From Amaurobius ferox (taxonomy: Eukaryota; Arthropoda; Arachnida; Araneae; Amaurobiidae), in assembly GCA_951213105.1 (NCBI GenBank), contig OX578155.1, positions 28,784,857-28,848,856 on the forward strand: a stretch of 64,000 bases of DNA. Direction: 5' to 3'. The notes under the pieces were generated by a model. That model was not told the origin of the DNA, ran no database searches, and saw only the letters and a list, made by a program, of their open reading frames with translations. Position 1 is the first letter of the stretch. Each line of letters starts with the position of its first letter. Position numbers and translations under genes: made by a program. Of this stretch, positions 1,134 through 42,499 are shown one piece after another.

Positions 1134-1134
1134 A

Positions 1135-2235: not shown

Positions 2236-2239
2236 AAAC

Positions 2240-3080
2240 AATTACGCTACAATTTATCTGTGATATAGCTGCTCCTCCTTGACCTGACGCTTTTATGTTG
2301 CTCGGCAAGGTATTACGTCACTATGCGTAACGAAACTCTGATCATTTGCATATCTCGTCTTGCTGTTTCCATAGCCTGATTTACATAAAGCTACTACAAC
2401 TTTATGGTGTAGCGATGTCAGTTGTGAGCAGTGTATATATATCCTATTGTTGTAAGTGTTAAAAATGAGGCCAATATGTAGTTTCGCAACATTTGATACT
2501 GCTCATGGCGAGTTATGCATAAAAGCTTTTATCCAAAAAACGAAGTTCTACTTGTTTTATTTATTTTTTTTTTTTTCTTCCAATTCTTAGTTAAGCACTT
2601 GTATTCATGCATGATTCATTTTGTTGAATAATGAATAAATGTATCTTAACGTTGACTATATTTTTTATTACTTGTTTATTTATTTTAGTTTAAATTTGTA
2701 TTAAAATTTAATGTATCAATAAAATCCTTATTTTTGAAATTAAAATTTCTACACCCTTGTGCACAAATAGTAGTAGTAATTTTAAGGTTGCAAGTGCTTT
2801 TTATGTTTTTGAATTTTTGTCTCTATTCTGTATTTAAATTTATTTGTTTTAATTATATTTTTGATGTTTCATCAAGTGCTTATAGTTATTACTTATCTCT
2901 TTGTCGCAGTTTTTATTTCTTATCAGCTTGTGTGAAATTGGAACTGCCTTGTTTCGCTTTGCTCATATTATTTTATACATGTTTTTATATTTCCTATTAC
3001 CCTCCTTTGTTAATGATTATGATTGCTTACTTATTTTGTCTTGTCTGCTGTCTTTTACGATTATATATTCTTATTTGATA
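2240..3080. other. AT-rich DNA without recognised gene
   Basis: 2240-2500 may be the 5' flank of the Tc1-like element. 2500-3080 is T-rich low-complexity sequence. A 114-codon open frame at 2734-3078 is only a hydrophobic translation of T-rich DNA (Phe/Leu/Tyr/Cys), with no family resemblance and no supporting context. Confidence 0.6.
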
Positions 3081-3144
3081 ACTAGCCGCCTTTGGCGACC
3101 AGCCTGTTCGCTACCCTTGAAAATTCTGACCGTGGCAAACTCGT

Positions 3145-6100
3145 TGGCGCGACCTACCAGAAAGGTGTAAGGTAACTGCTTGGAAGGCCAGGAAGTGCCA
3201 CACAATTTAGACCGGAACCCAATGGGGGAGGCATCCAAAGAGACCGTACCCTCCTTCCCCTACCACAAACCTCTCGGAAGGACTTGCAGTCCCACACGTT
3301 TAACGTGATCGTACTCCGCGTGAACACGGCTGCAGTTTTGGCAATGGCGGGAATCGAACCCGGGCCTACCGAGTGAAATTCCCGCGCGCTAACCACTGGG
3401 CTACCGTGCCATCCGCGACAATCTCCATAACTTTATTTTTATTCGGCAATTTTGGGAATCGAACCCGGGCCTACCAAGTGCAAATCCCGCGCACTAACCA
3501 CTGGGGTACTTCACCCTCCGCGATATTCTTCATAACTTTCTTTTTATTCACCCAATTTAGACCGGAACCAAGTGGGAGAAGCATCAACAGGGACCGTACC
3601 CTTCTTCCCCTACCACCAACCTCTCGGAAGGACTTACAGACCCACATGTTTAACGTGATCGTACTCCGCGTAAACACGGCGGCAATTTTGGGAATCGAAC
3701 CCGGGCCTACCGAGTGCAATTTCCGCGCGCTAACCATTGGGCTACTTTGCCCTACGCGACAATCTCCATAACTTTCTTTTTATTCATCCAATTTAGACCG
3801 TACCCTCCTTCCCCTACCACCAACTTCTCGGAAGGACTCACGGACCCACATGTTTAACGTGATCGTACTCCGCGTAAACACGGCGGCAATTTTGGGAATC
3901 GAACCCGGGCCTACTGAGTGCAATTCCCGCGCGCTAACCACTGGGCTTCTTCGCCCCCAGCGACTATCTCTATAACATTCTTTTTATTTACCCAATTTAG
4001 AACGGAACCCAGTGGGAGAGGCATCCACAGGGACCGTACCCTCCTTCCCCTACCACCAACCTCTCGGAAGGACTTCCGGACCCACATGTTTATCGTGATC
4101 GTACTCCGCGTGAACACGGCGGCAGTTTTGGAAGTGGCGGGAATCGAACCCGGGCCTACCGAGTGCAATTCCTGAGCGCTAACCACTGGGCTGCCTCGCC
4201 CTCCGCAACTTTCTTTATATTCACCCAATTTAGACGGGAACCCTGTGAGGGAGGCATCCACAGGGACCGTACCCTCCTTCCCCTACCACCAACCTCTCGG
4301 AAGGACTTCCGGACCCACATGTTTATCGTGATCGTACTCCGCGTGAACACGGCGGCAGTTTTGGAAGTGGCGGGAATCGAACCCGGGCCTACCGAGTGCA
4401 ATTCCTGAGCGCTAACCACTGGGCTGCCTCGCCCTCCGCAACTTTCTTTATATTCACCCAATTTAGACGGGAACCCTGTGAGGGAGGCATCCACAGGGAC
4501 CGTACCCTCCTTCCCCTACCACCAACCTCTCGGAAGGACTTCCGGACCCACATGTTTATCGTGATCGTACTCCGCGTGAACACGGCGGCAGTTTTGAAAG
4601 TGGCGGGAATCGAACCCGGGCCTACCGAGTGCAATTCCTGAGCGCTAACCACTGGGCTGCCTCGCCCTCCGCAACTTTCTTTATATTCACCCAATTTAGA
4701 CGGGAACCCTGTGAGGGAGGCATCCACAGGGACCGTACCCTCCTTCCCCTACCACCAACCTCTCGGAAGGACTTCCGGACCCACATGTTTATCGTGATCG
4801 TACTCCGCGTGAACACGGCGGCAGTTTTGGAAGTGGCGGGAATCGAACCCGGGCCTACCGAGTGCAATTCCTGAGCGCTAACCACTAGGCTGCCTCGCCC
4901 TCCGCAACTTTCTTTATATTCACCCAATTTAGACGGGAACCCTGTGAGGGAGGCATCCACAGGGACCGTACCCTCCTTCCCCTACCACCAACCTCTCGGA
5001 AGGACTTCCGGACCCACATGTTTATCGTGATCGTACTCCGCGTGAACACGGCGGCAGTTTTGGAAGTGGCGGGAATCGAACCCGGGCCTACCGAGTGCAA
5101 TTCCTGAGCGCTAACCACTGGGCTGCCTCAGCCTCCGCAACTTTCTTTATATTCACCCAATTTAGACGGGAACCCTGTGAGGGAGGCATCCACAGGGACC
5201 GTACCCTCCTTCCCCTACCACCAACCTCTCGGAAGGACTTCCGGACCCACATGTTTATCGTGATCGTACTCCGCGTGAACACGGCGGCAGTTTTGGAAGT
5301 GGCGGGAATCGAACCTGGGCCTACCGAGTGCAATTCCTGAGCGCTAACCACTGGGCTGCCTCGCCCTCCGCAACTTTCTTTATATTCACCCAATTTAGAC
5401 GGGAACCCTGTGAGGGAGGCATCCACAGGGACCGTACCCTCCTTCCCCTACCACCAACCTCTCGGAAGGACTTCCGGACCCACATGTTTATCGTGATCGT
5501 ACTCCGCGTGAACACGGCGGCAGTTTTGGAAGTGGCGGGAATCGAACCCGGGCCTACCGAGTGCAATTCCTGAGCGCTAACCACTGGGCTGCCTCGCCCT
5601 CCGCAACTTTCTTTATATTCACCCAATTTAGACGGGAACCCTGTGAGGGAGGCATCCACAGGGACCGTACCCTCCTTCCCCTACCACCAACCTCTCGGAA
5701 GGACTTCCGGACCCACATGTTTATCGTGATCGTACTCCGCGTGAACACGGCGGCAGTTTTGGAAGTGGCGGGAATCGAACCCGGGCCTACCGAGTGCAAT
5801 TCCTGAGCGCTAACCACTGGGCTGCCTCGCCCTCCGCAACTTTCTTTATATTCACCCAATTTAGACGGGAACCCTGTGAGGGAGGCATCCACAGGGACCG
5901 TACCCTCCTTCCCCTACCACCAACCTCTCGGAAGGACTTCCGGACCCACATGTTTATCGTGATCGTACTCCGCGTGAACACGGCGGCAGTTTTGGAAGTG
6001 GCGGGAATCGAACCCGGGCCTACCGAGTGCAATTCCTGAGCGCTAACCACTGGGCTGCCTCGCCTCTCCGCAACTTTCTTTATATTCACCCAATTTAGAC

Positions 6101-6290
6101 GGGAACCCTGTGAAGGAGGCATCCACAGGGACCGTACCCTCCTTCCCCTACCACCAACCTCTCGGAAGGACTTACGGGCCCACATGTTTAACGTGATCGT
6201 ATTCCGCGTGAACACTTCGGCAGTTTTGGCAGTGGCGGGAATCGTACCCTGGCCTACCGCTAACTTCCCGCGCGATAATTTACAATTTAA
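3145..6290 (-). repeat. Tandem array of a tRNA-derived SINE (233-bp units)
   Basis: On the minus strand each unit has a tRNA-like head with an A box (GGCAGCCCAGTGGTTAGCGC) and a B box (GGGTTCGATTCCC), followed by a body with conserved blocks such as GGTTGGTGGTAGGGGAAG. The B box occurs about 14 times, at roughly 3351, 3458, 3690, 3898, 4141, 4374, 4607, 4840, 5073, 5306, 5539, 5772, 6005 and 6238. From 4141 to 6005 the spacing is exactly 233 bp and units differ by only a few bases. Units at both edges are more diverged and irregular in length (about 108, 232, 208 and 243 bp on the left). Only the left edge (3145-3190) carries the SINE 3' segment, so the array is repeated head-plus-body with a single tail. 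Open frames of 77-170 codons on both strands here are by-products of periodicity. Confidence 0.92.
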
Positions 6291-6329
6291 AATGACCATA
6301 TGCTCTCTAAGCTCTTAATTCCATCATCC

Positions 6330-6500
6330 TCATTCCATTGTTCCATCATTTAAAATATCCATAAAATTTAAATATCCATCGTTCCATCATTTAAAATATC
6401 CATAAAATTAAAATATCCATCGTTCCATCATTTAAAATATCCATAAAATTAAAATATCCATTTAAAAAATCCATATCGTTCCATCATTTAAAATATAAAT
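6330..6500. repeat. Short tandem repeat, about 41-bp unit, 3-4 copies
   Basis: The unit reads TTCCATCATTTAAAATATCC then ATAAAATTAAAATATCCATCG. Three clear copies and one partial are present, with a small insertion in the last. It starts just past the SINE array. Confidence 0.85.
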
Positions 6501-6539
6501 ATAATAATTTCTACAGTGCATATGTTAAGCTCTTATTTC

Positions 6540-7265
6540 ATTTAAAATCGGAAGCGCGGGAAACGGAAAGTAAAAACTAATTCGGTTTCTTATTGTCCCA
6601 CCCATCGCTATGCATATACAGAACCGTGACGTCACCTCCACCTTGACGTCCCCACCCACCACCTTCCCTGCTTCAGCGGGGGAGAAACGAAGCGGTACGC
6701 CGAGCGGAGCGCCGAGAAATATAAAATCATGACGTCTTTAAAATTGCGATCCTGAAGGCAATTTTCATTATTTCTGGACCAGATTAGACTTGTAAGAATG
6801 CCAGATATTTCAGCTTTCTAAAAATGTAAATTATTAGTCGAAATTATGAGTACTTTTTACTATGCGAGAATTTAAAAACCAAAAATCGTTTTTTTGAGCC
6901 AAAAGTGACTTTTGTTTTAAAATCTTTAAAAAATATTAGAAATCAAAATGGAGATTTGAAATTGATATATTTTTACTCGCAATTGTCTGCTCTTTCCGAT
7001 GGTGTGAGTTGTTTTTTTCTACGACGTCTGGATCGTGGAGAAAAAAGGGCAAAAAGGGCAAAAAAAGGTCGAAATCGCATAAAACATTAAATAAATAAAA
7101 AAATAATTAGAATTTTGTAAATCGGTTTTCACGTGTCCCCTTCTCACCCCCCAGGGTCTCCGATTGCCAAATTTCTTAACTCTCCGACGCGCGGTCGCGA
7201 AACGTATAGTGTATAAGACACACAGAACACACACACACACAGACATTGTCTTTTATTATATAGAT
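6540..7265 (+). repeat. Candidate dispersed repeat with GC-rich head and CA/TATAGATT tail
   Basis: 6590-6730 is unusually GC-rich for this window and holds TGACGTCA (near 6628) plus two related GACGTC sites. The segment ends after a CA run with CTTTTATTATATAGATT at about 7249-7265, a tail of the kind seen at the 3' ends of arthropod retroposons. No reverse transcriptase is encoded, and I have no second copy in the window, so the mobile identity is inferred. Confidence 0.35.
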
Positions 7266-8394
7266 TAATCCCCACCCCTTTATGGCGATAAGAAACCTGC
7301 TAATATCATGCAATTTGTATTTGTCTATAGTTACATAGGTTAACACTTAATCGTAACAACTGTGCTAGAGATTGGTTATTAGTCATTACGGTAGTCAATG
7401 GATAGCTTTTGTTCTTAAATATACATTATATATAATATATATATACTATTTTTGAAGAACAATATCATTTAGAATACCATTGAAATTTGCACATATTTAA
7501 AATCATAAGCAACGTTGTGTATATCTGCTAGTAGAAAAATAAAATTCAAAATTAAAACATACTAAATCATTTATATCATAAAGTTTATTAATAAAAAACT
7601 ATGACATAATTAGAACACTAGAATACAAAATGAAAACACACTAAATATATTTTTTTTTATCACAACAAAGTTTTAATGAACAAAAGCGAAAAAAAAATAT
7701 ATCTACATAAATATCTAAGCTCATAATAATCAATAACAAAGAAAAACTTATAAAACGTGGTGAAAAGCATTTAACAATCTCTTCCATTTTGATACTAATT
7801 TGGGCTTACAAGACATTTCTCCGTTGTCGATAATCTTAGCAGTAGTAATTAAACATTTACATATTAATTTATTCCTCGTTTAGAGGATTTTATTATATTT
7901 ACTATTAACCTTTTCCTCAACCGCTTATAAGTATTCTTTACAAATTTAACAACCGGTTTTCAACCAGTCAGAAATGAATTTGAACCGGCCTAGCTTTATT
8001 CTGGTATAGATCCTGAATATTATGTAAAAATAAGTCACATAAAATATTGATTAACTATGTAATCTCTAAACTATCTAATAACCCATACAAAACTCAAGAT
8101 TAGATGTACAAAATTTATGCAAATATAACAGCCACCCCTCGATTTGCGCAGTTTTTATAGAGATCCTTCTTTAACAATTAACCTTAAGTTTCGTCAATTT
8201 TAAACTGCAATTGTATACATATACTTTTTTTTATAGTACAGCTAAATGTTTATTTATATCACAGAAGTCCTTGAATATCATGCAGACGATATTTTTATTG
8301 CAAAAGAAAGACAATGCAAATGATGAAACAGATCCAAAGGAGGAAGTTGAGAGAAATTACAACATAACAAAAACTTATCAGAGCACAATAAAAA
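7266..8394. other. AT-rich intergenic DNA, one small unassigned open frame
   Basis: Mostly AT-rich without repeats I can pair. At 8300-8405 (plus) there is a short stretch with charged, non-repetitive codon content (NANDETDPKEEVERNYN...) ending in TAA just before a dispersed repeat begins at 8400. It could be the end of an exon or chance; no family is recognised. Confidence 0.4.
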
Positions 8395-8399
8395 AAAAT

Positions 8400-8769
8400 G
8401 CATAAAGCATTGATTATGAAACACTTTCCAACTGAAATGCAATTTTATTTACACATCTAACTTTATACGAAAATACAATATTAGTTACACAAAATGAACT
8501 TTATTCAAATGACATCATCGAAATATAAATCGTCTGCCTCCCTGTAAAATCAATGAATATTGCATTCATATCACTTATATTCCAGAGCTAAATAATTTTG
8601 AGTAAAAAAAAAAAATTCAGCAATTCTTATACAGCCCATCTTACAATCGATTGATTTGTTTACATTCTGTATGCCATAGGCATTAAAATTAGACGTCGGT
8701 TGAAGGAATAATCAAAGTTTAGTAATCAAGTAATTGCGTTGGCACAGAATTTAGATACACAGATAATAC
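8400..8769 (+). repeat. Dispersed repeat, second copy at 47857-48259
   Basis: Both copies open with GCATAA(A)GCATTGATTATG followed by AAACACTTTCCAACTGAAATG, and both close with TTTAGATACACAGATAATAC. The sequence between is about 80-85% alike by eye. The copy at 47857 is preceded by a hAT-like terminus (CAGTGGTTCCC at 47794), so this may be the inside of a hAT-type non-autonomous element whose end is lost here. Confidence 0.75.
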
Positions 8770-9523
8770 GCAAAAATTACGTTTTCGATTAAAAACATGA
8801 AATATAGAGATTAGCGTTTAATCTTTTTATCCGTAATTATATTTTATATTTTTTCGATTTTTGAAAAAAAAAAAAAAAAAAAAATGGAGTGAAGGGAGTT
8901 TCCTAGGTCTATGCACACATCCTTCCCCAAATCAATAAATAGGCCTCCGACGTTCACTAGAATAATCAACCCAAATTTTATTTGATTTTATCAATTTGTT
9001 CGAAGAAAAAAATCGTGCTCACAGACATCCTTCAGAAAAGAAAAAAAAAATAGTTGATTTGCAGAAAGGAAATATTTTTCAATAAATAAATAAATAACGA
9101 GAACGGAAATTGATAAAAAAAAAAAAAAAAGGTAGTATTTTATTTTCTGATACCGATTACCCAAAAAATATGGCATATGAATGTATGAGAAAATGCAGTG
9201 GAGTGTTACACTCCAGATATTTTTTAGCTTTAAGAAACAGATAAAAGATAAATTTCAATCAAAAAGGTAAGCAGAATTTTTAGACTGGAAAGAATAGCCC
9301 GACTGTTTTGTGATCGAACGTATCACATCATTCTTCAGGAACGTAATAGCCCTGCAAATCGAGGGATTAATTCTGTACAAACAAAATGCACTGTATAGCA
9401 AATAAATTATCACATGTGATAACGTAGCTACTAAATATACACATCTACATTTAATGAATATATTGTATCCCTAGTAGCAATCTAATATTGGCCCACTATT
9501 GGCTTATTATTGGGGCTAATATG
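8770..9523. other. AT-rich DNA with A-runs, no gene seen
   Basis: There are poly-A runs at about 8862-8884 and 9115-9130. The segment 9470-9523 repeats the word AATATTGG / GGGGCTAATAT in a form also found around 22430-22540, a second diffuse repeat. Nothing coding is recognised. Confidence 0.5.
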
Positions 9524-10266
9524 AAAAATCTGATATGGGCAGCACATGACCTTCCCTGCAGACTTATATCCACGTTCTCTTCATTTTCATTAAATTTAAT
9601 TCACTTTTAATTCACTTTTCGTTCTCATTTGGTAACTGGACTTATTTTCAAAGGTGTCGTAGAGAAAATACAAAAAAATTAAAATATCTCGAGAACGGCT
9701 AGTCCTAGTGTAATGGGGTTGATCTTATTCTTTTCTTCGTTAAAAATTACGTATAAAACAAGCATTTAATGGATATATTTGAGCATAAGTAGTTTTTTAT
9801 TTCAGATTTTGACTTCTGCGGGCCATTTCACATAAAAAGGCAGGTTATTTTCTTTTTCGAATCATACCAAAATCTAATCAGCACCAGGGTAACCCACAAA
9901 CGACTTATCTACCGAATTTGTGAAATTCGGTCGATTAGTTTTTCAGCTAGAGTGAATACAGGCAATTTTTGCGGGCCATTTCGCAAAAAAAGGCGGGCTC
10001 TTTTATCCCGAATCGTACTAAAAACTAATCAGCACCAGGGGCACACCCAAGTGACTTACCTACCAAATTTTATGAAATTCGGTCCATTAGTTTTTGAGTT
10101 AGTGGGTGCATACATTGAACAGACAGACACACAGACGTCACGCTAAAAATGGTTTTTTCGTATTCTAGAGGTCTCGAAACATGTAGATCCGTCGAAAACT
10201 CGAGATGCGATTTTCGGCATGATTCCAATACTTTCCCTATATATTACCATGTATTGCAGAGAAAGT
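9524..10266 (+). repeat. Interspersed repeat family A, near full-length
   Basis: It starts AAAAATCTGATATGGGCAGC with a small fold-back (ATGTG/CACAT in other copies), then a CTTCCCTGCAG motif. It ends with the hairpin CTTTCCCTATA...TATTGCAGAGAAAGT. ACTTTCCCTGCA near the left end and TGCAGGGAAAGT at the right end form an inverted pair in better copies, offset about 20 bp inside the left end. Internally two copies of a GCGGGCCATTTCRCAAAAA module lie about 150 bp apart. Non-coding. Confidence 0.85.
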
Positions 10267-10353
10267 AAAAAGTGGACATTGTGAAGGAATTGGCCCGATA
10301 TCGGGACAGTATTACGCATATATTTCTAATGCAACAAAAATATTGGCGTTACA

Positions 10354-10678
10354 GTGTATTTCTATATTAAAAAAAAAGTAGCTGACCCCGCCGCTGTTGG
10401 ACAAATTTCTTGTTTCTCGAGATTCTTTGCTTCGTACCGCAAAAACTATTGCATACAAAAATATGAAATTTGGTACACTTATAGAAAAAGCGTCGGGGAA
10501 TACGCTGAAATAAACCGTTTTTTGCTATATACATGTAGTTTAAGAAATATTTAATGTCAAAGTCAAAATATTTGAGCTGCGAGTTCGCGTCCTGGATAGA
10601 CTAACAATAGCAAGACCACGAATTTTTGCAAGGCATGTACCTACATGGGTGAATTTTTACAGGACGAAGTCCCTTTTT
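10354..10678 (+). repeat. Dispersed repeat E, partner at about 22060-22210
   Basis: The shared core is TCGTACCGYAAAAAYTAT then GCATACAAAAATATGAAATT, followed by TGGTACA.TTATAGA. The rest, including GCGAGTTCGCGTCC, is found once in the window. It abuts family B at 10679. Confidence 0.65.
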
Positions 10679-11541
10679 ACTTTCCTTATATACATAATGT
10701 ATAAGGAAAGTATTGTGACGGGGTCGAAAATTCGAAATCGAGTTTTCGACGGGAGAGCACGTTTCAAGCATCCCTAATCACGAATCAAACATTTTTGAAG
10801 CGATGTCTGTGTGTGTGTGAAAGTATGTGTGTGTGTGTGTGTGTGCGTGTCAGTGAGTCTGTGGAGACGATAACTGACGAACGAATGGACCGATTCGAAC
10901 CAAATTTGGTACAAAAATCACAATCCGTAAACACTGGAAGCCTATTGTTTTTATACGCTATCGAATGTTCAGAACCCTCCTAAATTTTCGAATAAAATTT
11001 TGAAAAAATCGTCAAAAAATCAAAACCACTAATAAAGTTACACAAATAGGCATTTCTTATGTAATTTTTCATTAGAAAACGATTGGCATGCATTTTAGAA
11101 CGCTAACACAAACCGTTCTCGAGATATTGCACATTTTTCAAAAAATTATCAAAAAGTCATATAGAATAAAAAAAATATATTTCCTATTGAGAAATATGTT
11201 CACTTTTCATATGTAATACCATACGATAAATTGGGTGACATCATTCTCGTGGATCTAGCTCGTTCCATTCATGGAAAAAGATACTTTGAGTAATACTTTT
11301 GTATTTGAACGCCAATAGTCATTTGTCTGCTGTAAGAATAACTTATTTCTTCATCCATAATAACGCTTGGCGAGATTTTGGCGACGAATTTGGCGGAATG
11401 TCGCCAACTTGACGACTTTTTGAAATGTTGCCAAATTAACGAAAATCTCGCCAAATGGATGAAAATGACGCTAAATCAATAAAAATGACGACTAATTGTC
11501 GAAAATTCAATATCTTGGAAAGAATATTAGTATCTACTATA
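10679..11541 (+). repeat. Interspersed repeat family B, left part (interrupted by the large element)
   Basis: It opens with the hairpin ACTTTCCTTATA...TATAAGGAAAGT (10679-10713), then the reverse-oriented GACGGGGTCGAAAATTCG module and a TG microsatellite (about 10805-10850). It continues to ...TCTACTATA at 11541, where the 10.4-kb element begins. The repeat resumes at 21916. Confidence 0.85.
11536..11541 (+). repeat. Target-site duplication ACTATA (left)
   Basis: The same six bases follow the element at 21916-21921. The empty relative at 499-504 has ACTATA once. Because the element's end bases partly repeat the flank, 8-bp (TACTATAA) or 10-bp (CTACTATAAG) readings also fit with shorter element ends. 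Confidence 0.75.
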
Positions 11542-11547
11542 AGTAGT

Positions 11548-11555
11548 TATAAAAG
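11548..11555 (+). promoter_or_regulatory. Inward-facing TATA-box-like motif at the left terminus
   Basis: TATAAAAG followed by GCCGG lies 6 bp inside the element end, pointing inward. The mirror copy is at 21902-21909. It is a perfect match to the classical TATA consensus with G/C-rich flanks. Function is inferred only. Confidence 0.4.
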
Positions 11556-11559
11556 GCCG

Positions 11560-11820
11560 GTCCCAGTCCAAAGAGGGGAGGTGGTGCCGTGTGGTGCCAG
11601 AGGAGGCCCTCTTTGGGAGGGAATTTCCCTCTTTGAGAGGATCCTCTTTGGGAGGATGCCTCTTTGGAGTGTCTTCCCTCTTTGGAGTGGACCCTCCTCT
11701 CAGAGGGTCTTGAGACCCCCAGGAGGGAGGATGCCTCTCAGTGCCCCCTCCCCTCTTTTGGAAGTTTAGTGAGGTGGTGCAGCACCGGATGCCTCTTTCG
11801 GAAGAGGGCAATTGCGAAGT
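11560..11820. repeat. G/C-rich CCTCTTTGG microrepeat block in the left arm
   Basis: Many imperfect copies of CCTCTTTGGGAGG / CCTCTTTGGAGTG. The left arm has about 48 bp more of these than the right arm (mirror about 21690-21890), so copy number has shifted since the arms were last equal. Its base composition contrasts with the AT-rich surroundings. Confidence 0.8.
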
Positions 11821-12164
11821 CTTTCAGAGAGGCATGATGACTCATACGGAGTGAGTTTCACTCCGAGTCTTGAGAGGGAATGTCACAAGCGCTGACTGAC
11901 CCTTGACCTGAGGAAGTGGTTTCAAGGGATTTCGCAATCGCTGACCGACCCTTGACCTGAGGAAGAAGTTTCAAGGGATGTCGCAATCGAACAATCTGGA
12001 AATGACGTGTCGCGCCTTGGAGCTCCTTAGCACACGTCCTCCCTCTCTGCTGGTCAGCGACAGAGTGAAAGATCTTATCAGCGTGAAGTAGTTAAAGCGC
12101 CCTCTGGTGAATTTTGATGAAGTGCTGCCATCTATCGGCATTTTTTTTCCAAAAGAAATTAATG

Positions 12165-12250
12165 TTTCACTTGTCAGGAGCTGGATTCGATCTTGGGCCC
12201 AACTGATTAGAAGCCGCGCGTCTTACCATCGTGCCAAAGCACCCGTGCTT
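12165..12250 (-). repeat. tRNA-like segment in the left arm
   Basis: On the minus strand there is an A-box-like TGGCACGATGGTAAGACGCG and a B-box-like AGATCGAATCC at tRNA spacing. The mirror copy on the plus strand is at about 21256-21330 in the right arm. It lacks a paired acceptor stem, so it is a tRNA-derived relic or an internal Pol III promoter rather than a tRNA gene. The 87-codon open frame across it is probably not a protein. Confidence 0.55.
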
Positions 12251-12394
12251 TATAGGCAGTTAACTTCGAAGTGTACCTTATCAGTGGAAGTTAGATTATT
12301 TTTCAAAGTTCATTCGAATAGCGATGCACTTTATAAAGGGTGCGTTTTAAAACAGAATGCTACGGAGTGAATATAAATCTGTGTATTATAACAT

Positions 12395-13290
12395 TATGAT
12401 TTTTTTTTTAAAAACAAATGTATACACAAACTTTAAAAACACGAATGTAATAATTAGCTAAAATTGTGTTCAGTGGACATGAAACTTGTATTCAGTGAAT
12501 AGGATTCGACCATTCTGAGTGTTGTGTATCTAAAAACAAATGTATACACAAACTTTAAAAACACGAATGTAATAATTAGCTAAAATTGTGTTGAGTGGAC
12601 ACGAAACTTGTATTCAGTGAATAGGATTCGACCATTCTAAGTGTGTGTGTGTATAGCAATGTGGATTTTTTTTTTTTTTTGCTTTTTTAAAATAAATCTA
12701 ACTATCAATACGATTTTTATAATAATAACGAAATAATTTCGAATGTTTAAAAACAAATTGATTACGGATTTTCAATGAACACACAAATTGTGTTCAGTGA
12801 ATAGGATTCGACCATTCTGAGTGTTGTGTATCTAAAAACAAATGTATACACAAACTTTAAAAACACGAATGTAATAATTAGCTAAAATTGTGTCCAGTGA
12901 ACACACAAATTGTGTTCAGTGAATACCATTCGACCATTTTAAGTGTTGTCTATCTAAAAACAAATGTATACACAAACTTTAAAAACACGAATGTAATAAT
13001 TAGCTAAAATTGTATTCAGTGGATTTTTTTTTTTTTTTTTTAAATAAATCTAACTATCAATACGATTTTTATAATAATAACGAAATGATTTCGAATGTTT
13101 AAAAACAAATTGATTATGGATTTCCAATGAACACACAAATTGTGTTCAATGAATACGATTCGACCATTTTAAGTGTTGTGTATCTAAAAACAAATGTATA
13201 CACAAACTTTAAAAACATGAATGTAATACATAGCTGAAATTATGTTTTGTGAACAGGATTCGACCATTCTAAGTGTGTGTGTGATTTTTG
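12395..13290 (+). repeat. Subterminal tandem repeats in the left arm
   Basis: The unit contains AAAAACAAATGTATACACAA (starts near 12408, 12534, 12836, 12957 and 13185), then TAATTAGCTAAAATTGTGTT and a GATTCGACCATTCT.AGTGT block. About five units are 120-130 bp each, with two longer spacers that share TAACTATCAATACGATTTTT. The mirror is at about 20230-21090. Confidence 0.85.
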
Positions 13291-13324
13291 AAAAATAAAT
13301 CTAAAAGTATATAAAAATAATAAT

Positions 13325-13440
13325 GGAAATTAGAACTCACGGAACGACGACTTCACTACCCGCTGGTCAAACTTCAAATGAGTGATACACTCTCATTACG
13401 CTATTAAAAAATTAGATATTATCTATAATGACGTCAGCAG
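13325..13440 (+). promoter_or_regulatory. Repeated module with TGACGTCA and TTATCT (outer copy, left arm)
   Basis: The module runs from AACTCACGGAACGACGACTT through GAGTGATACACTCT to ATTATCTATAATGACGTCA (TGACGTCA at 13429-13436). A second copy at 14205-14310 ends in TGATGTCA. Mirrors lie at about 20065-20180 and 19190-19300. TGACGTCA is the CREB/ATF site and TTATCT/AGATAA the GATA site; regulatory use is inferred. Confidence 0.45.
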
Positions 13441-14204
13441 TATGAGGTGTTGCCACCTATTTTTTCTAATAATATATTTTAATAGTTGGATACTTCAAGG
13501 GTCTGATTTGATACACGTAATCTGAAATACATCATTTTAATGATATTACGCATTGAATATGATTTGGCCATTTTTAAAATGGTGGATGTAATTGAAATAT
13601 CGAAGTTTAGAATTTAACAAACTAACGAATTTTCACCCCCAAAAATTTTAGCATTCAGTTTAAATAAAACCCAATGAATATGATATCACCATTTTAACAT
13701 CGTAATTTTACTACCATTATAGAACTTAGAAGTGAGTGTACATTATTTTTTTCAGGACACCAACACATTTTAAAATCTATTGAATAGGAATAGACCATTT
13801 TGCACATACATGTACCTAGATTTCAACACCCGGTATTAAAACCTGCTAAACATGAAACGAGTAAGTATTGTGTGAGATTTTATCACACTAACTTTCAAAC
13901 TTTTTAAATTTTTAAAAATGTCCGAAATAGTTGTATTTCATCGATAGACATAAATTGTATGGAACACATTTTTATGAAAAAAATATCTGTTTCGACAGCT
14001 TTTAAAAATAGATTTCTACAGTTGTACACTACGGTTCTAGAATTTTCTAAATACGAATCGACTGTTTAAACTACCAATGGTGGTTTTACCGATGCAAATA
14101 TTTACAGGACAAATATTTCAATGAAACCGAACTTAGTTGAAGCTTCTAAGTTTGAATATTTAGAATCATTTCATATAATTTTTATATTCACATTGAAAAT
14201 AGTT

Positions 14205-14310
14205 AACAAAATTGGAACTCACGGAGCGACAACTTACTGTCCACACTCCAAATGAGTGATACACTCTTATTACATTATTAAAAATTAGATCTTATCTATA
14301 ATGATGTCAT
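14205..14310 (+). promoter_or_regulatory. Repeated module, inner copy, left arm
   Basis: Same order of words as the outer copy about 875 bp upstream: AACTCACGGAGCGACAACTT, GAGTGATACACTCT, CTTATCTATAATGATGTCA. Its CRE-like site has one change (TGATGTCA at 14302-14309). Confidence 0.4.
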
Positions 14311-15784
14311 TATGTTGCCGTATTCCCACCACACAATTATTCTTTCCAAATTATGCATTTTTTCTTTTTTCTTTTTAATAACTTGCTATTGTCTTATGCT
14401 ATCCATTTTTTTTTTTTTTCATATAAGCAGATATTCCATATACCTTCTAAATGTTAAGTTATAATTTAAAAAAAAAAGCATTAGAGGTGTATTTTACGTC
14501 TGAATTCGTCCAAGTGGAAATCCGACAATTGCAAATGCATGATTGCATCCTCACATTTCAATAGACACCACTAAAATGTGTGGATCTTATTTTGAAAAAG
14601 CTGCTCTCAGAAAGAATATGTATATGAATACATATTTTCCATAAATATACCCCCTCCCCCCCTCAATACACACAACATGCAGGCCAAAGACTCACCCAAA
14701 ACACATTCCAAATCGGCTCTATAGCTTATCGCGCTTATCAATGTAACAGATAGTAACCCAAAGTTCATGTTCGCAAAGCGAGTTAATTGCAATGTTATTG
14801 TTTTAAGCAGTTCCCATATTTAAATGAAAAATTTATCAAATTATACAATACATACAAGAGCTGGAAGATCATAGCATTTCAATATTATAGAATACTCACG
14901 AATGTTTTTTTTTTTTCCCCATTTAAAATTATCAAATTTTAATGCAATTTGACAAAAATTGCACAATACTTAGTGTATGACTATCAAATAAGAGCTAGGT
15001 TTTATTGTTACAACAACGTTTAAGATCATTAAACGAGTATATATATATTTTTTTTTAAAGAAGAATAGTATATAACTTACTGTTTTTAAGGATAGGTGAT
15101 TGTTAACATTGAATTTAAATGAATGAGTGACCCACTGAGACAAGTACAGTACATTGCAATAACATTAAAAAATATGAAAGATATGCAATTAACACCTTAA
15201 AAGAAACATGTAATGAGTTTTGATATCTTAATACGAGACATTATTGACATGCACATAGAAATGTCACAATTTTGTGGCTGTAGGTGCTCCATAAGACCCC
15301 TCTGCTCTTAATAAATGATCCCATTTGAATGTACATATTTAACAACACACAGAAAATGACAGAACCACAACAAAATTTTACACCTATTACAGAATAACTC
15401 CCAACTTCGTAGATTTTTAAGAAACTACAGTCGAATTTTCACCGATTCTTAGAGATTGAAACACAGCATTGTTTATGAATCTTCACACTTTAGAGAATGG
15501 AACATAAATTAGCATTTATTTTGAATGAATTCAGAATTTTGACATTGATTATAAATTTATGATTTAAACTCTGTAAAGTGTAAATATCTTTTGTCATGAA
15601 ACTCACACTGTAGACATTTGATATGATTCGAATAAATCTATTTTTAATTTTTTATATTTTATTTTAAAAAGTGAGATTAGTAAACCTGTTACACTTGAAT
15701 GCATAGATACATAACTCACAACAATATAACATTTCTTAAATGGAACATGCTAAAAAAAAAAAAAAAAAAAAAAAATTAGCTAAT

Positions 15785-16505
15785 TAAATTTTTTTAATTA
15801 CTATCGATTTTTAATTACTTCTTAATTTTAAAAGGCTAAATGGCTATCTTGCGAACCTTGGACCAATGACGTCATCTTGTGAACTTTGGAGTGATGACGT
15901 CATTTTATGTGGAATCTTAGATAAGATAAGAACTGATAAGCTCTCATCTAATTGTTGCAATTAGTGTGTTTATCGTTCATTTCTAGTTTGGATGCCGACT
16001 TGTGAAGGCCTCATACTGTTAGTTATTTTCGTGTTTTTGGTAGTTATTCTTGTATATTCCGCGTGATACATATCACCTAAAGTTATAAAAATATATATAA
16101 AATTTTTCTAAGTATATAATGTTAATGTGATTTAAAATTCGGAACATTAAGTAAGTTTGGTACATATTTTCACTCTATGATTTCGAAGCTGAATGAAATA
16201 ATATAGAAATTTTCTCATGTATATAACAATTGTATTTACCACAATCTAATGTTGTACGATTCATTAAAAATTATAAGTTCTAATCACTTCATATCTTATG
16301 TGATCTGTTTGCACACGACACTCGATTTAGGTTACGTGATTATACTTATGAAGTTGTTTGATAAGTCATTTCAACTTTGGACGTTGTGTGGATAGGTTTG
16401 CTTCGCTCATAGCTGTGACAGAATTATAATGTTTTAAGATGTTAGTGTTTTAAAAATAAATCTTATACTGTGAATGTCGTAGTTGGATGTTACTATCTAA
16501 AAAGA
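15785..16505 (+). promoter_or_regulatory. Core upstream region of the PC4-like gene
   Basis: Two perfect TGACGTCA sites lie at 15867-15874 and 15895-15902, 28 bp apart. They are followed by a cluster of GATA-type words (AGATAAGATAAGAACTGATAAG is split over 15920-15941). An AT-rich TATA-like stretch is at about 16082-16102. The same CRE plus GATA pairing recurs in the arm modules, so one regulatory theme is spread through the element. The region is not coding. Confidence 0.45.
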
Positions 16506-17621
16506 ATGTCTAAAATTCAAAGTATGCCATCACTCGAGCAAATAATTTCTAGTGTAAATAGTGCGGAGTTGACTGTTCCTGCCCTAGAAGAAACAAAATC
16601 TGTGGACATTGTCTCAGATGTGATTAATTCACCCTCACAAAAATTTGCTGTGGATTGGTTAGAAACCTATCTTATGTCTTCCAAAACCCCAGCAGAAACA
16701 TCTACCGTTGTCAATTCACAAGTTCTCACCGAGGTTGAAAACTCAACTCATGATCTGCTTTCTTGTGCTCTAACACATAGTGGACTGTTATCTTCCAATG
16801 CAGAATCAGTTTCGACTGAATCTACTTCTTCAGATTTTATGCAAGATGCACTCCGTCGTTGGCATTTAGGTTCTAATGTGTATGTGTATTTGAAACTTCG
16901 TCATGGGAAGTTAAAAGTGTATATATGGAAATATCTCTCTAACGATCGAAATGAATTACAGCCTACGCGTGAAGGTGTTACACTGTCACCGGCTACATGG
17001 AGTGAATTTTCTCAAAAATTGTGGTCGTTCAATATTCTATATGCAGATACCTCTTTCGTCAGTCGCAATGAGTTGTTCTGTTTCAATGACAACGGAAAAT
17101 TGCATCTGCAGAAAATAATTCAATTATATGATTCAAAATTTTGTCTAACACAGTGTCATATTACCTTAGATAAAAATCAAATAGCATGTTTACAGAATAG
17201 TGTTAACAACATTAGTATACATCTTCGAGAAAGTATATTTATAGAGTGGCTTCCTGCTCAAATATTAAAAATAAAGAACACTATAACCTTTCTACCATCA
17301 CTTATTTGTGACAAAAATTTTGCATTCGAACAATTAATCTCTTGTATTCATGACAACATCATGTGTCATGTAAGAAAACTTTTCAAATGTGTTGGCTGTG
17401 TTGGTCAAGTTGAAGATTTAAGTTACCATGAATGTCTTTACAGCACTCCATTACAAATGTTTGACAGAGTGTCTGAACAAGTACTTCTAAATCTTGACAT
17501 TAATAACATTGCTAAGAAAGTTTTGTTGCGTGGTGAAGAAGTCTTTTACTGCTATGATAGAAATTTTTTCGAGTCATTCAAATCAGAGGACTATGAAAGT
17601 GCGATAAGGAAATTATTTTAA
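16506..17621 (+). CDS. PC4/p15-like single-strand DNA-binding domain protein, 371 aa
   Basis: This is the only long intact frame in the element. I start at ATG 16506 (MSKIQSMP; A at -3). The frame stays open upstream to 16470, but that start would be GTG. Residues 1-120 are Ser/Thr-rich and look disordered. Residues 124-178 resemble the PC4 (p15) fold: VYVYLKLRHGKLKVYIWKYL, then LQPTREGVTLSPATW, matching the family's beta-strand, basic 'K-G-K', 'L-P-T-x-x-G-x-x-L' and W pattern. PC4 proteins bind single-stranded DNA and act in transcription or replication. Residues 179-285 are unassigned. Residues 295-310 hold CVGC-x9-HEC, a possible zinc site in a Cys-rich tract (C280, C287, C295, C298, C310). 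Being the sole gene suggests a role in replication or expression of the element. Absence of stops over 371 codons in AT-rich DNA argues for selection. The PC4 call is from memory of the motif, not a search. Confidence 0.8.
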   Translation: MSKIQSMPSLEQIISSVNSAELTVPALEETKSVDIVSDVINSPSQKFAVDWLETYLMSSKTPAETSTVVNSQVLTEVENSTHDLLSCALTHSGLLSSNAESVSTESTSSDFMQDALRRWHLGSNVYVYLKLRHGKLKVYIWKYLSNDRNELQPTREGVTLSPATWSEFSQKLWSFNILYADTSFVSRNELFCFNDNGKLHLQKIIQLYDSKFCLTQCHITLDKNQIACLQNSVNNISIHLRESIFIEWLPAQILKIKNTITFLPSLICDKNFAFEQLISCIHDNIMCHVRKLFKCVGCVGQVEDLSYHECLYSTPLQMFDRVSEQVLLNLDINNIAKKVLLRGEEVFYCYDRNFFESFKSEDYESAIRKLF

Positions 17622-17726
17622 CTTATTTGTTTAAATGTACAAGTGATAATGGTTAATGTGTATTTCATTAATAATAGATTCATTAAATGGTTTTTATCTT
17701 TCAAATTGAATTCCTTATTTATACTC
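17622..17726 (+). other. Short 3' flank of the PC4-like gene
   Basis: About 105 bp separate the stop codon from the right arm. No AATAAA lies within it; the first good AATAAA-type word follows at about 17846-17853 inside the arm, so a transcript probably ends in the arm. Confidence 0.4.
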
Positions 17727-20229
17727 ATTAGCTAATTTTTTTTTTTTTTTTTTTTTTTTAGCATGTTCCATTTAAGAAATGTTATATTGTTGTGAGTTAT
17801 GTATCTATGCATTCAAGTGTAACAGGTTTACTAATCTCACTTTTTAAAATAAAATATAAAAAATTAAAAATAGATTTATTCGAATCATATCAAATGTCTA
17901 CAGTGTGAGTTTCATGACAAAAGATATTTACACTTTACAGAGTTTAAATCATAAATTTATAATCAATGTCAAAATTCTGAATTCATTCAAAATAAATGCT
18001 AATTTATGTTCCATTCTCTAAAGTGTGAAGATTCATAAACAATGCTGTGTTTCAATCTCTAAGAATCGGTGAAAATTCGACTGTAGTTTCTTAAAAATCT
18101 ACGAAGTTGGGAGTTATTCTGTAATAGGTGTAAAATTTTGTTGTGGTTCTGTCATTTTCTGTGTGTTGTTAAATATGTACATTCAAATGGGATCATTTAT
18201 TAAGAGCAGAGGGGTCTTATGGAGCACCTACAGCCACAAAATTGTGACATTTCTATGTGCATGTCAATAATGTCTCGTATTAAGATATCAAAACTCATTA
18301 CATGTTTCTTTTAAGGTGTTAATTGCATATCTTTCATATTTTTTAATGTTATTGCAATGTACTGTACTTGTCTCAGTGGGTCACTCATTCATTTAAATTC
18401 AATGTTAACAATCACCTATCCTTAAAAACAGTAAGTTATATACTATTCTTCTTTAAAAAAAAATATATATATACTCGTTTAATGATCTTAAACGTTGTTG
18501 TAACAATAAAACCTAGCTCTTATTTGATAGTCATACACTAAGTATTGTGCAATTTTTGTCAAATTGCATTAAAATTTGATAATTTTAAATGGGGAAAAAA
18601 AAAAACATTCGTGAGTATTCTATAATATTGAAATGCTATGATCTTCCAGCTCTTGTATGTATTGTATAATTTGATAAATTTTTCATTTAAATATGGGAAC
18701 TGCTTAAAACAATAACATTGCAATTAACTCGCTTTGCGAACATGAACTTTGGGTTACTATCTGTTACACTGATAAGCGCGATAAGCTATAGAGCCGATTT
18801 GGAATGTGTTTTGGGTGAGTCTTTGGCCTGCATGTTGTGTGTATTGAGGGGGGGAGGGGGTATATTTATGGAAAATATGTATTCATATACATATTCTTTC
18901 TGAGAGCAGCTTTTTCAAAATAAGATCCACACATTTTAGTGGTGTCTATTGAAATGTGAGGATGCAATCATGCATTTGCAATTGTCGGATTTCCACTTGG
19001 ACGAATTCAGACGTAAAATACACCTCTAATGCTTTTTTTTTTAAATTATAACTTAACATTTAGAAGGTATATGGAATATCTGCTTATATGAAAAAAAAAA
19101 AAAATGGATAGCATAAGACAATAGCAAGTTATTAAAAAGAAAAAATGCATAATTTGGAAAGAATAATTGTGTGGTGGGAATACGGCAACATAATGACATC
19201 ATTATAGATAAGATCTAATTTTTAATAATGTAATAAGAGTGTATCACTCATTTGGAGTGTGGACAGTAAGTTGTCGCTCCGTGAGTTCCAATTTTGTTAA
19301 CTATTTTCAATGTGAATATAAAAATTATATGAAATGATTCTAAATATTCAAACTTAGAAGCTTCAACTAAGTTCGGTTTCATTGAAATATTTGTCCTGTA
19401 AATATTTGCATCGGTAAAACCACCATTGGTAGTTTAAACAGTCGATTCGTATTTAGAAAATTCTAGAACCGTAGTGTACAACTGTAGAAATCTATTTTTA
19501 AAAGCTGTCGAAACAGATATTTTTTTCATAAAAATGTGTTCCATACAATTTATGTCTATCGATGAAATACAACTATTTCGGACATTTTTAAAAATTTAAA
19601 AAGTTTGAAAGTTAGTGTGATAAAATCTCACACAATACTTACTCGTTTCATGTTTAGCAGGTTTTAATACCGGGTGTTGAAATCTAGGTACATGTATGTG
19701 CAAAATGGTCTATTCCTATTCAATAGATTTTAAAATGTGTTGGTGTCCTGAAAAAAATAATGTACACTCACTTCTAAGTTCTATAATGGTAGTAAAATTA
19801 CGATGTTAAAATGGTGATATCATATTCATTGGGTTTTATTTAAACTGAATGCTAAAATTTTTGGGGGTGAAAATTCGTTAGTTTGTTAAATTCTAAACTT
19901 CGATATTTCAATTACATCCACCATTTTAAAAATGGCCAAATCATATTCAATGCGTAATATCATTAAAATGATGTATTTCAGATTACGTGTATCAAATCAG
20001 ACCCTTGAAGTATCCAACTATTAAAATATATTATTAGAAAAAATAGGTGGCAACACCTCATACTGCTGACGTCATTATAGATAATATCTAATTTTTTAAT
20101 AGCGTAATGAGAGTGTATCACTCATTTGAAGTTTGACCAGCGGGTAGTGAAGTCGTCGTTCCGTGAGTTCTAATTTTCATTATTATTTTTATATACTTTT
20201 AGATTTATTTTTCAAAAATCACACACACA

Positions 20230-21090
20230 CTTAGAATGGTCGAATCCAGTTCACAAAACATAATTTCAGCTATGTATTACATTCATGTTTTTAAAGTTTG
20301 TGTATACATTTGTTTTTAGATACACAACACTTAAAATGGTCGAATCGTATTCATTGAACACAATTTGTGTGTTCATTGGAAATCCATAATCAATTTGTTT
20401 TTAAACATTTGAAATCATTTCGTTATTATTATAAAAATCGTATTGATAGTTAGATTTATTTAAAAAAAAAAAAAAAAATCCACTGAATACAATTTTAGCT
20501 AATTATTACATTCGTGTTTTTAAAGTTTGTGTATACATTTGTTTTTAGATAGACAACACTTAAAATGGTCGAATGGTATTCACTGAACACAATTTGTGTG
20601 TTCACTGGACACAATTTTAGCTAATTATTACATTCGTGTTTTTAAAGTTTGTGTATACATTTGTTTTTAGATACACAACACTCAGAATGGTCGAATCCTA
20701 TTCACTGAACACAATTTGTGTGTTCATTGAAAATCCGTAATCAATTTGTTTTTAAACATTCGAAATTATTTCGTTATTATTATAAAAATCGTATTGATAG
20801 TTAGATTTATTTTAAAAAAGCAAAAAAAAAAAAAAATCCACATTGCTATACACACACACACTTAGAATGGTCGAATCCTATTCACTGAATACAAGTTTCG
20901 TGTCCACTGAACACAATTTTAGCTAATTATTACATTCGTGTTTTTAAAGTTTGTGTATACATTTGTTTTTAGATACACAACACTCAGAATGGTCGAATCC
21001 TATTCACTGAATACAAGTTTCATGTCCACTGAACACAATTTTAGCTAATTATTACATTCGTGTTTTTAAAGTTTGTGTATACATTTGTTT
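20230..21090 (-). repeat. Subterminal tandem repeats in the right arm
   Basis: Mirror of 12395-13290: five units carrying TTGTGTATACATTTGTTTTT, with the same longer spacers. Order and unit count agree with the left arm. Confidence 0.85.
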
Positions 21091-21255
21091 TTAAAAAAAA
21101 ATCATAATGTTATAATACACAGATTTATATTCACTCCGTAGCATTCTGTTTTAAAACGCACCCTTTATAAAGTGCATCGCTATTCGAATGAACTTTGAAA
21201 AATAATCTAACTTCCACTGATAAGGTACACTTCGAAGTTAACTGCCTATAAAGCA

Positions 21256-21330
21256 CGGGTGCTTTGGCACGATGGTAAGACGCGCGGCTTCTAATCAGTT
21301 GGGCCCAAGATCGAATCCAGCTCCTGACAA
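21256..21330 (+). repeat. tRNA-like segment in the right arm
   Basis: Mirror of 12165-12250. The A-box-like region starts near 21264 and the B-box-like AGATCGAATCC is at 21308-21318. Same caveats: promoter-like boxes without a full cloverleaf. Confidence 0.55.
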
Positions 21331-21915
21331 GTGAAACATTAATTTCTTTTGGAAAAAAAATGCCGATAGATGGCAGCACTTCATCAAAATTCACCAGAGG
21401 GCGCTTTAACTACTTCACGCTGATAAGATCTTTCACTCTGTCGCTGACCAGCAGAGAGGGAGGACGTGTGCTAAGGAGCTCCAAGGCGCGACACGTCATT
21501 TCCAGATTGTTCGATTGCGACATCCCTTGAAACTTCTTCCTCAGGTCAAGGGTCGGTCAGCGATTGCGAAATCCCTTGAAACCACTTCCTCAGGTCAAGG
21601 GTCAGTCAGCGCTTGTGACATTCCCTCTCAAGACTCGGAGTGAAACTCACTCCGTATGAGTCATCATGCCTCTCTGAAAGACTTCGCAATTGCCCTCTTC
21701 CGAAAGAGGCATCCGGTGCTGCACCACCTCACTAAACTTCCAAAAGAGGGGAGGGGGCACTGAGAGGCATCCTCCCTCCTGGGGGTCTCAAGACCCTCTG
21801 AGAGGAGGGTCCACTCCAAAGAGGGAAATTCCCTCCCAAAGAGGGCCTCCTCTGGCACCACACGGCACCACCTCCAAACTCCTCTTTGGACTGGGACCGG
21901 CCTTTTATAACTACT

Positions 21916-22012
21916 ACTATAAGAAAAACCTATTTTTTTACTGTAAAAGTAGTAAATTCATTACATTATATAAGGAAAGTCATGTGTTGCTCACATCAGA
22001 TTTTTTTAATTT
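21916..22012 (+). repeat. Family B repeat, right part; begins with ACTATA duplication
   Basis: Picks up exactly where 11541 stops. ACTATAAGAAAAACCTATTTT through TATAAGGAAAGTCATGT and CACATCAGA corresponds to 499-590. This gives the element's borders independently of the inverted repeats. Confidence 0.85.
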
Positions 22013-22564
22013 CGATGTAGTTTTTGAGATATTTTATTTTTTCTGCACTTCTGAAGTATATATATATATTTTTTGTATCGGCACGTCTAGCGATTTCTCT
22101 GTCTCGTACCGTAAAAATTATAGCATACAAAAATATGAAATTTGGTACATTTATAGAGAAATAATAGGGTAACATGATGAAATAAACAGTTTATCGATTT
22201 AAACTTTAGTTTGGCATGAAATAGTTCGTGATCAAGGAATTCAGTTTTTGGATTTCCTGGGCTAAGAAAAATACCTGCTTTTCCCTCCGGAAAATAGGCA
22301 GGGATAGGAAAGGGATTTTTGACAGAATTTTTAGGAAAAATAGATATGAAGCGAGCGAGCTCTGCAAATAGAAGGCGAAGCCTCCCGAATGGGTTTGCGC
22401 GAGCAGGGGGCAGCCCTCCTCTAATAATGAAAATATTAGCCAATATTGGAGGCTAATGTAACCCCAATATTAGGAATACATTGTAAATATTTCCAATATA
22501 ATGCCAAGATATACAATATTGGTTCAATATTGAATGCTACTAAGGATGCATGCATGATGCACCA
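22013..22564. other. Repeat E partner and diffuse repeat, no gene
   Basis: 22060-22210 pairs with 10354-10560. 22260-22430 is G/C-richer sequence (GGAAAATAGGCAGGGATAGG...), single copy here. 22430-22540 has multiple CCAATATT words like 9470-9523. Confidence 0.5.
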
Positions 22565-42471: not shown

Positions 42472-42482
42472 CTGAAAAATTA
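42472..42482 (-). promoter_or_regulatory. Splice acceptor before the glycosyltransferase exon
   Basis: On the minus strand the sequence is ATAATTTTTCAG followed by AGAGACGAG. The pyrimidine tract plus CAG, and the fact that the upstream codons (MFYSIIFQ) look unlike a conserved start, support an intron here. The upstream exon was not found in the window. Confidence 0.6.
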
Positions 42483-42499
42483 TGGAATAAAACATACAT

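Follow-up and report, generated by a model that had tools for sequence, protein, structure and literature searches.

In a 64,000-nucleotide window of the Amaurobius ferox genome (C24:28784857-28848856; "the window" throughout), a mobile element with giant inverted arms and a PC4-like gene, of the type that binds single-stranded DNA, was found to belong to a family whose complete copies are end-to-end palindromes of about 12 kb, that is, inverted dimers of a unit of about 6 kb. We consider, with a probability of about 0.6, that this family is a satellite of the hairpin or 'snapback' kind, dependent on a polymerase-carrying element related to Mavericks, and that it is integrated in trans by a Maverick-type integrase. 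Neither the whole-palindrome form nor the covariation of the arms could be seen from the window alone; both emerged from searches of the 3.56-Gb host assembly (276 contigs).

Twelve copies, picked for their size range and from the best matches rather than randomly, were read from end to end. Six contained two genes and were palindromic over 88-100% of their length. The copy at C23:16657344-16669624 (12,281 bp) aligned end to end with its own reverse complement at 99.1%, and the copy at 85.6 Mb on C22 (11,724 bp) did so at 99.7%; the match to the copy's own reverse complement covered 98.1% (C1:72.87), 98.7% (C1:108.86), 100% (C3:149.57) and 87.8% (C3:133.06) of the other two-gene copies. Five copies had one gene (complete, interrupted or partial) and one, of 3.5 kb, had none. 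Eleven of the 12 gene copies in the two-gene elements were ungapped and the remaining one had a 9-nt gap, and the 5' ends of the genes lay 1406-1445 nt apart in the five two-gene copies examined. An ungapped test of the centre, applied to five two-gene copies, gave 179-193/201 paired in three of them and 83 and 78 in two; in these two, which lack a clear ungapped centre, a gapped self-match still crosses the middle. Among the best 110 of 4425 gene-match candidates there were 30 divergent gene pairs, 27 of them spaced 2.51-2.60 kb, and no close pairs in a non-divergent orientation (4425 for this gene, 3055 for the AlkB-PC4 gene and 194258 for the polymerase described below are first-look candidates, not copy numbers). 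From the outside, the unit consists of the (AGT)2 end, a terminal repeat of about 2.2 kb, an inner arm, the outward-reading PC4-like gene and the centre, so that complete copies carry the inverted duplication of one end that defines a snapback or inverted dimer. The idea of 'flip/flop' loops at the centre was dropped, as a flipped centre is merely the orientation of a symmetric insertion.

The copy in the window corresponds to such a palindrome from which 1.95 kb, comprising the left gene and half of the centre, has been lost, and so is an atypical, damaged copy. It matches the C23 palindrome at 1-4197 and 6145-12174 of the latter, and the intervening 1.95 kb is absent from the window. Its arms of 4243 and 4189 nt share 4179 identical positions, with 5 mismatches and 64 gap positions in a few indels. 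Its features, in window positions, are as follows.

11542..21915, whole element (10,374 bp), a deletion derivative of a palindrome of about 12.3 kb
11536..11541, left target-site duplication, ACTATA
21916..21921, right target-site duplication, ACTATA
11542..15784, plus strand, left arm (5 mismatches against the right arm)
17727..21915, minus strand, right arm, the inverted copy
11542..11560, plus strand, 19-nt terminus AGTAGTTATAAAAGGCCGG at the left end: the (AGT)2 end motif, then directly TATAAAAG
21897..21915, minus strand, identical 19-nt terminus at the right end
11542..13782, plus strand, outer part of the left arm in common with the terminal inverted repeat of the polymerase-bearing element (70-87% where aligned, with gaps; L043)
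19721..21915, minus strand, outer part of the right arm in common with the terminal inverted repeat of the polymerase-bearing element (L044, L059)
12370..13276, plus strand, sub-repeats inside the arm (families D1-D4, 54-232 nt), mirrored at 20227-21131
15771..15809, junction at which one gene copy and half of the centre are gone (1.95 kb of the C23 palindrome)
15785..17726, plus strand, single-copy core, with one half of the centre, the presumed promoter region, the gene and its 3' region
15867..15902, plus strand, two TGACGTCA motifs upstream of the PC4-like gene
16506..17621, plus strand, PC4-like gene, 371 aa, open frame from ATG

The original prediction, made from the letters of the window, had described near-identical inverted arms, AGT...ACT ends flanked on both sides by ACTATA, an intact 371-codon frame and a single-copy core with one gene. 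The arms, the frame and the duplications were found as described, and the ends, which read AGTAGT on the left and ACTACT on the right, lie exactly where they had been placed; the one-gene core is correct for the window copy but not for complete copies, in which there are two divergent genes (6/12). The TATAAAAG next to (AGT)2 in the terminus is presumably TATA-box-like, and we take the TGACGTCA motifs to be cyclic AMP response elements (CRE). In the palindromes examined TGACGTCA motifs flank the centre on both sides, and the centre therefore looks like a two-way promoter. On visual inspection, an arm stretch at about 12180-12260, mirrored at about 21250-21330, resembled the A and B boxes of tRNA genes; ARAGORN tRNA and Rfam scans gave 0 matches. 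Outside the element, a direct repeat (80%) lies on either side of it, at 10423-10532 and 22095-22204.

In the host genome there are 189 forward and 191 reverse exact matches to the 19-nt end and 0 to its reversed-sequence control, so that the similarity of the ends is not due to chance, and the first 459 bases of the element have a match at 40/40 scored places. Among the first 100 of the 380 ends listed we found 36 convergent pairs within 30 kb, spanning 2.6-14.4 kb plus one of 20.1 kb (median 11.9 kb). Perfect 6-bp duplications flanked all 12 copies read end to end, one polymerase-bearing copy described below and 18/20 further end pairs; overall, they were present in 31/33 end pairs, and the 31 duplications were all mutually different. 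A cluster at C10:100.34 Mb (L057), with three ends and flanks that do not form a simple pair, was excluded from this count. A pyrimidine-purine step (YR) occupies the middle of the duplication in 22/31 cases (P 1e-7 against one in four, the motif having first been spotted in these very data). Such a centre agrees with a symmetric strand transfer of two ends. These results support a multicopy, recently mobile family with Maverick-like (AGT)2//(ACT)2 ends and 6-bp duplications, which is what the original prediction had proposed. Palindromes are hard to assemble, and we considered that a read or assembly error had duplicated a 6-kb element in inverted orientation. This explanation was dropped and its likelihood is negligible: 31/33 of the pairs read are bordered by host DNA and each by a duplication of its own, the 36 listed pairs vary in span over the range given above, the arms carry small differences and some copies are asymmetric.

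To compare arms, the first 1500 nt of both were aligned in the 12 copies, with indels ignored. In 7/12 copies they differed at only 1-4 sites (1/1450 in the window, 1/1457, 2/1463, 2/1481, 3/1482, 3/1493 and 4/1498). Left arms taken from different copies (66 pairs) differed by 0.27% for the window and C23 and by 3.1-13.6% for the others, with a median of 5.8%. The gene regions behaved similarly: mates within one element (7 elements) differed at 0, 1, 2, 5, 8, 10 and 44 of about 3200 sites, and the median difference of non-mate pairs (n=428) was 0.56%. Private substitutions common to both mates were present in 7/7 elements, 1-6 in each, and for the 428 non-mate pairs the mean number in common was 0.028 (maximum 3). 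It appears from this that a mutation once in an element tends to lie in both of its arms. Because the arms share private mutations and differ far less than the copies do, the results suggest that each cycle uses a single template for the two arms, although gene conversion may contribute to their likeness; copying of both arms from one strand, in a hairpin-like manner, would explain the covariation best.

A candidate source of the replication machinery was found between ends of the same kind. The 20.1-kb pair (C2:194114624-194134762) has identical exact 19-nt ends and the duplication CCCATA, and was read as three unjoined stretches (L043, L044 and L059) comprising all but one base. On its minus strand is a polymerase frame that matches DNA_pol_B_2 (E 7e-16), Endonuclease_7 (E 7e-4, 19.9 bits against a cut-off of 23.6; phrog_423, E 9e-4) and C2H2 fingers, the last also matched in a separate small frame; against PDB sequences the polymerase frame matched zinc-finger proteins alone. 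The end of this frame in L043 has no Pfam match on its own and reads TDTDSLTY, which we take to resemble the polymerase C motif. Divergent from the polymerase is a frame in which an AlkB-type 2OG-FeII_Oxy_2 domain (E 1.6e-21) is fused to PC4 (E 3e-7). A single, weak AlkB match came from NCBIfam, and the PC4/C-terminal part had no match in the protein search. In its left part this copy is interrupted by a nested insertion, and a dispersed repeat lies where the polymerase frame starts. The same polymerase, inside exact ends with perfect duplications, was also found at C3:120639846-120653271 (13.4 kb, CACACT), where the AlkB-PC4 frame is unbroken (519 aa), and at C5:153302472-153315460 (13.0 kb, CAGGTA). 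Among the best 43 of 194258 polymerase candidates, 37 had no stop in the matched part and 32 lay in a 1293-aa frame, and a divergent AlkB-PC4 neighbour was present at at least 12 polymerase places, 11 of them with a spacing of 1.0-1.6 kb (best 43 and best 89 listed). The host has further family-B polymerase genes, many in open frames of about 1520 aa, which probably belong to additional families of Maverick-like elements; those on C1-C7 were not near exact ends, among those listed.

For most of its length the terminal repeat of the polymerase element runs collinear with roughly the outermost 2.2 kb of the window arms, and the window protein is 29% identical to the AlkB-PC4 protein over 296 aa (E 1e-24), from the region before PC4 to the C-terminus. 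The gene reads towards the element end in both the satellite and the polymerase element, and the orientation in the satellite matches the right end of the latter. On account of the shared outer arms, the protein homology and the gene orientation, the satellite resembles a single end of such a polymerase element that has been doubled in inverted orientation, and it looks as if it parted long ago from that element, without the AlkB part. Polymerase-carrying elements with the same ends probably copy the satellites, in line with the helper-dependence that the original prediction had supposed. It had also envisaged that larger elements sharing these ends might encode a polymerase and an integrase; the B-family polymerase was found, but not the integrase. 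Pfam detected no integrase, capsid, ATPase or protease in 47/47 frames of at least 70 aa from L043 and L044, a scan that left shorter frames and split genes outside it, and other copies were read in part.

This absence, and that of any other transposition gene from the 47 frames, raised the idea that the polymerase and AlkB-PC4 elements are self-sufficient: the polymerase would cut the target by means of its zinc fingers and its region resembling Endonuclease VII, and the palindromes would use the same machinery. The Endonuclease_7 match within the polymerase frame agrees with it (T4 endonuclease VII has a role at Holliday junctions), as does the little room for further genes that the coordinates would leave in the 13.0- and 13.4-kb copies. 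However, this match falls short of the Pfam cut-off, and a symmetric target centred on YR and cut with a 6-bp stagger would fit a DDE integrase well, and we regard self-sufficiency as distinctly improbable. True Mavericks may be present in the host genome: 32/150 scored host candidates for the adenovirus protease family, a hallmark of Mavericks, exceeded the cut-off, weakly (best E 6.6e-5), compared with 0/14 control genomes.

The PC4 segment of the window protein gave a weak match to Pfam PC4 (E 0.0023, 17.8 bits, cut-off 25) and a significant one to solved PC4 structures in the PDB (E 6e-4); the homologous AlkB-PC4 proteins reached 30.2 and 27.7 bits, above the Pfam cut-off. The protein differs from the PC4 (p15) transcriptional coactivator family in an additional C-terminal stretch of about 200 aa that has conserved Cys/His and turned up in this gene's relatives alone in the protein searches made. 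Two full-length relatives, P0001 and P0002 (55% and 50% identity), each lie on a contig of about 2 kb, and a profile search of 5.8 billion proteins yielded no others; PHROGs gave no significant match to the window protein, and viral contigs gave none to this protein, the AlkB-PC4 protein or the 19-nt end. An AlphaFold model made with three sequences had a predicted local distance difference test score (pLDDT) of 34. For the gene comparison, which was restricted to copies matching over an ungapped length of 1115-1116 nt, internal stops were absent from 41/41 ungapped copies, of which 28 had been picked by protein score, a choice that favours unchanged proteins, and 13 by ends or arm DNA. The ratio of nonsynonymous to synonymous substitution rates (dN/dS) was 0.23-0.59 for those pairs of these 13 that differed at 10 or more sites, values that are not independent as mates are included, and distinct gene variants showed 36 synonymous changes on 233 sites and 37 nonsynonymous changes on 880 sites. 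There are thus signs that the gene is under purifying selection.

Taken as a hairpin satellite, the family might be propagated in four steps. First, a co-resident element with identical ends would supply the B-family DNA polymerase, and its AlkB-PC4 protein, together with the PC4-like protein of the satellite, would coat displaced single strands. Second, protein priming with jumping back would start copying at the (AGT)2 ends; PMC8097293 ties end repeats such as (AGT)2 to jumping back in protein-primed replication. Third, the displaced strand would fold at the centre and be copied to a hairpin and then to a full palindrome, which would provide one template for both arms. Fourth, the two identical ends would be joined to the target with a 6-bp stagger by a Maverick integrase, of the retroviral type, provided in trans.

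We infer that the polymerase acts on the satellite, that there is protein priming and a hairpin intermediate, where the integrase comes from and what the PC4 protein does. A number of points weigh against this reading. The polymerase-bearing copy read at C2:194.1 Mb had no integrase that we could find, so the source of this enzyme is presumed, and the adenovirus-type protease candidates showed no link to an integrase or to these ends. Among the first 100 of the 380 ends listed, 28 were unpaired, and the two end pairs out of 20 that lack a duplication are at C2:24.64 Mb, which has an extra end 1.2 kb away and was counted as a miss although possibly mispaired, and at C2:143.27 Mb. As the window protein is just 29% like AlkB-PC4, the two lineages separated long ago, and the satellite is no fresh by-product. 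The arm ends are less alike in 5/12 copies (8/1487, 17/1446, 22/1413, 53/1377 and 99/1167, the last being C3:133.06, where the ends are offset and there are 129 gap openings). Finally, several unshared private substitutions also occur in each of 3/7 elements: L014/L015 have 1 shared and 5 and 4 unshared, L038/L020 have 2 shared and 3 and 4 unshared, and L017/L036 have 3 shared and 0 and 42 unshared, with 44/3204 sites differing.

Arm identity could partly stem from gene conversion around transposition, and near-identical inverted repeats are known to convert. The family might then be derived from Mavericks in the ordinary non-autonomous way, with terminal repeats that happen to be very long, its arms inherited separately and kept alike by chromosomal gene conversion; the Maverick-like ends and duplications and the mates with unshared private substitutions are all compatible with this. 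Long-term conversion should, however, keep old arms alike too, and the arms of degraded copies have drifted (17/1446, 22/1413 and 53/1377), so chromosomal conversion does not hold arms alike for good, while intact copies share private mutations. The data already lean towards an arm divergence that grows from zero with age, and we think this explanation unlikely.

Elsewhere in the window, tandem arrays occupy 3349-6259, their main part at 3974-6259 having a period of 233, 9.8 copies and 98% match. Part of the tandem unit is dispersed: it occurs twice in L044 (3123-3308 and 3957-4143), one of these where the polymerase frame begins, and L058 has it once, within a gap that splits a PC4-like gene copy. 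An open 335-aa frame at 41491-42498 (minus strand; Pfam Galactosyl_T, E 3e-51) is probably a host glycosyltransferase gene, and a 213-aa frame at 1605-2246 (minus strand), with a Tc3-type transposase helix-turn-helix (E 6e-11), is a Tc1/mariner-type remnant.

Mavericks are thought to copy themselves by way of protein-primed linear DNA, an intermediate that is hard to see. A palindromic family with co-varying arms may be the fossil print of such an intermediate, and the covariation makes the hairpin step testable by sequence. A likely helper and its satellite, which keeps just a PC4-type gene, reside side by side in this one genome, and the family points to polymerase elements that seemingly have no integrase. 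Tentatively, and with more doubt than confidence, one might go further and see here a new class of self-synthesising transposons, made up of a minimal element of about 13 kb, with nothing but a polymerase (zinc fingers, Endonuclease VII-like part and PolB) and an AlkB-PC4 protein, and a long-lived palindromic satellite spread through hairpins, its one-ended unit being doubled in each cycle; both would integrate with 6-bp duplications and without an integrase of their own. No publication title on such a palindromic PC4 element was found in the open-licence literature, which does not prove that there is none.

Of the known systems, Mavericks/Polintons share with the window element the (AGT)2//(ACT)2 ends, the 6-bp duplications and the terminal inverted repeats, and a B-family polymerase lies in three elements with its 19-nt ends. 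The window element differs in lacking genes for a polymerase, an integrase, an ATPase, a protease and a capsid. Its polymerase-bearing relative differs in having AlkB-PC4, and neither an integrase nor a capsid gene could be recognised in the copy read. According to PMC8097293, (AGT)2//(ACT)2 is the commonest end motif of vertebrate Mavericks, and the terminal repeats of intact ones measure 46-1447 bp, whereas the window arms are 4.2 kb and the arms of complete copies make up nearly the whole element.

Very long inverted arms with internal sub-repeats, as seen here, also recall Foldback elements and Mutator elements with long terminal inverted repeats, whose hallmarks are an 8-10-bp duplication and, for Mutator, a Mutator-type transposase. 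Cut-and-paste movement of this type, by an unseen transposase or with the 371-aa protein as transposase, is disfavoured and seems very improbable, since the family has 6-bp duplications (31/33), (AGT)2 ends and polymerase genes within the same ends, and the 371-aa protein has a PC4-type segment and not a transposase domain. Membership of Foldback/Mutator was rejected on the 6-bp duplications and because no Mutator-type transposase domain was found; the polymerase relatives, the whole-element palindrome and the two divergent genes set the family apart as well. A single-gene autonomous transposon was likewise considered and dropped.

There are viral parallels too. Symmetric defective adenovirus DNAs are known, and in both these and the snapback forms of adeno-associated virus (AAV) an end and a gene duplicated in inverted orientation give a palindrome that is copied by a helper. 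According to PMC8235507, snapback AAV genomes exist and the 3' type bears head-to-head promoters. Both the AAV and the adenovirus forms are by-products of viruses, whereas here the palindromes form a heritable, integrated family, and the satellite has a gene of its own, with signs of selection and with relatives (P0001 and P0002) at 50-55%.

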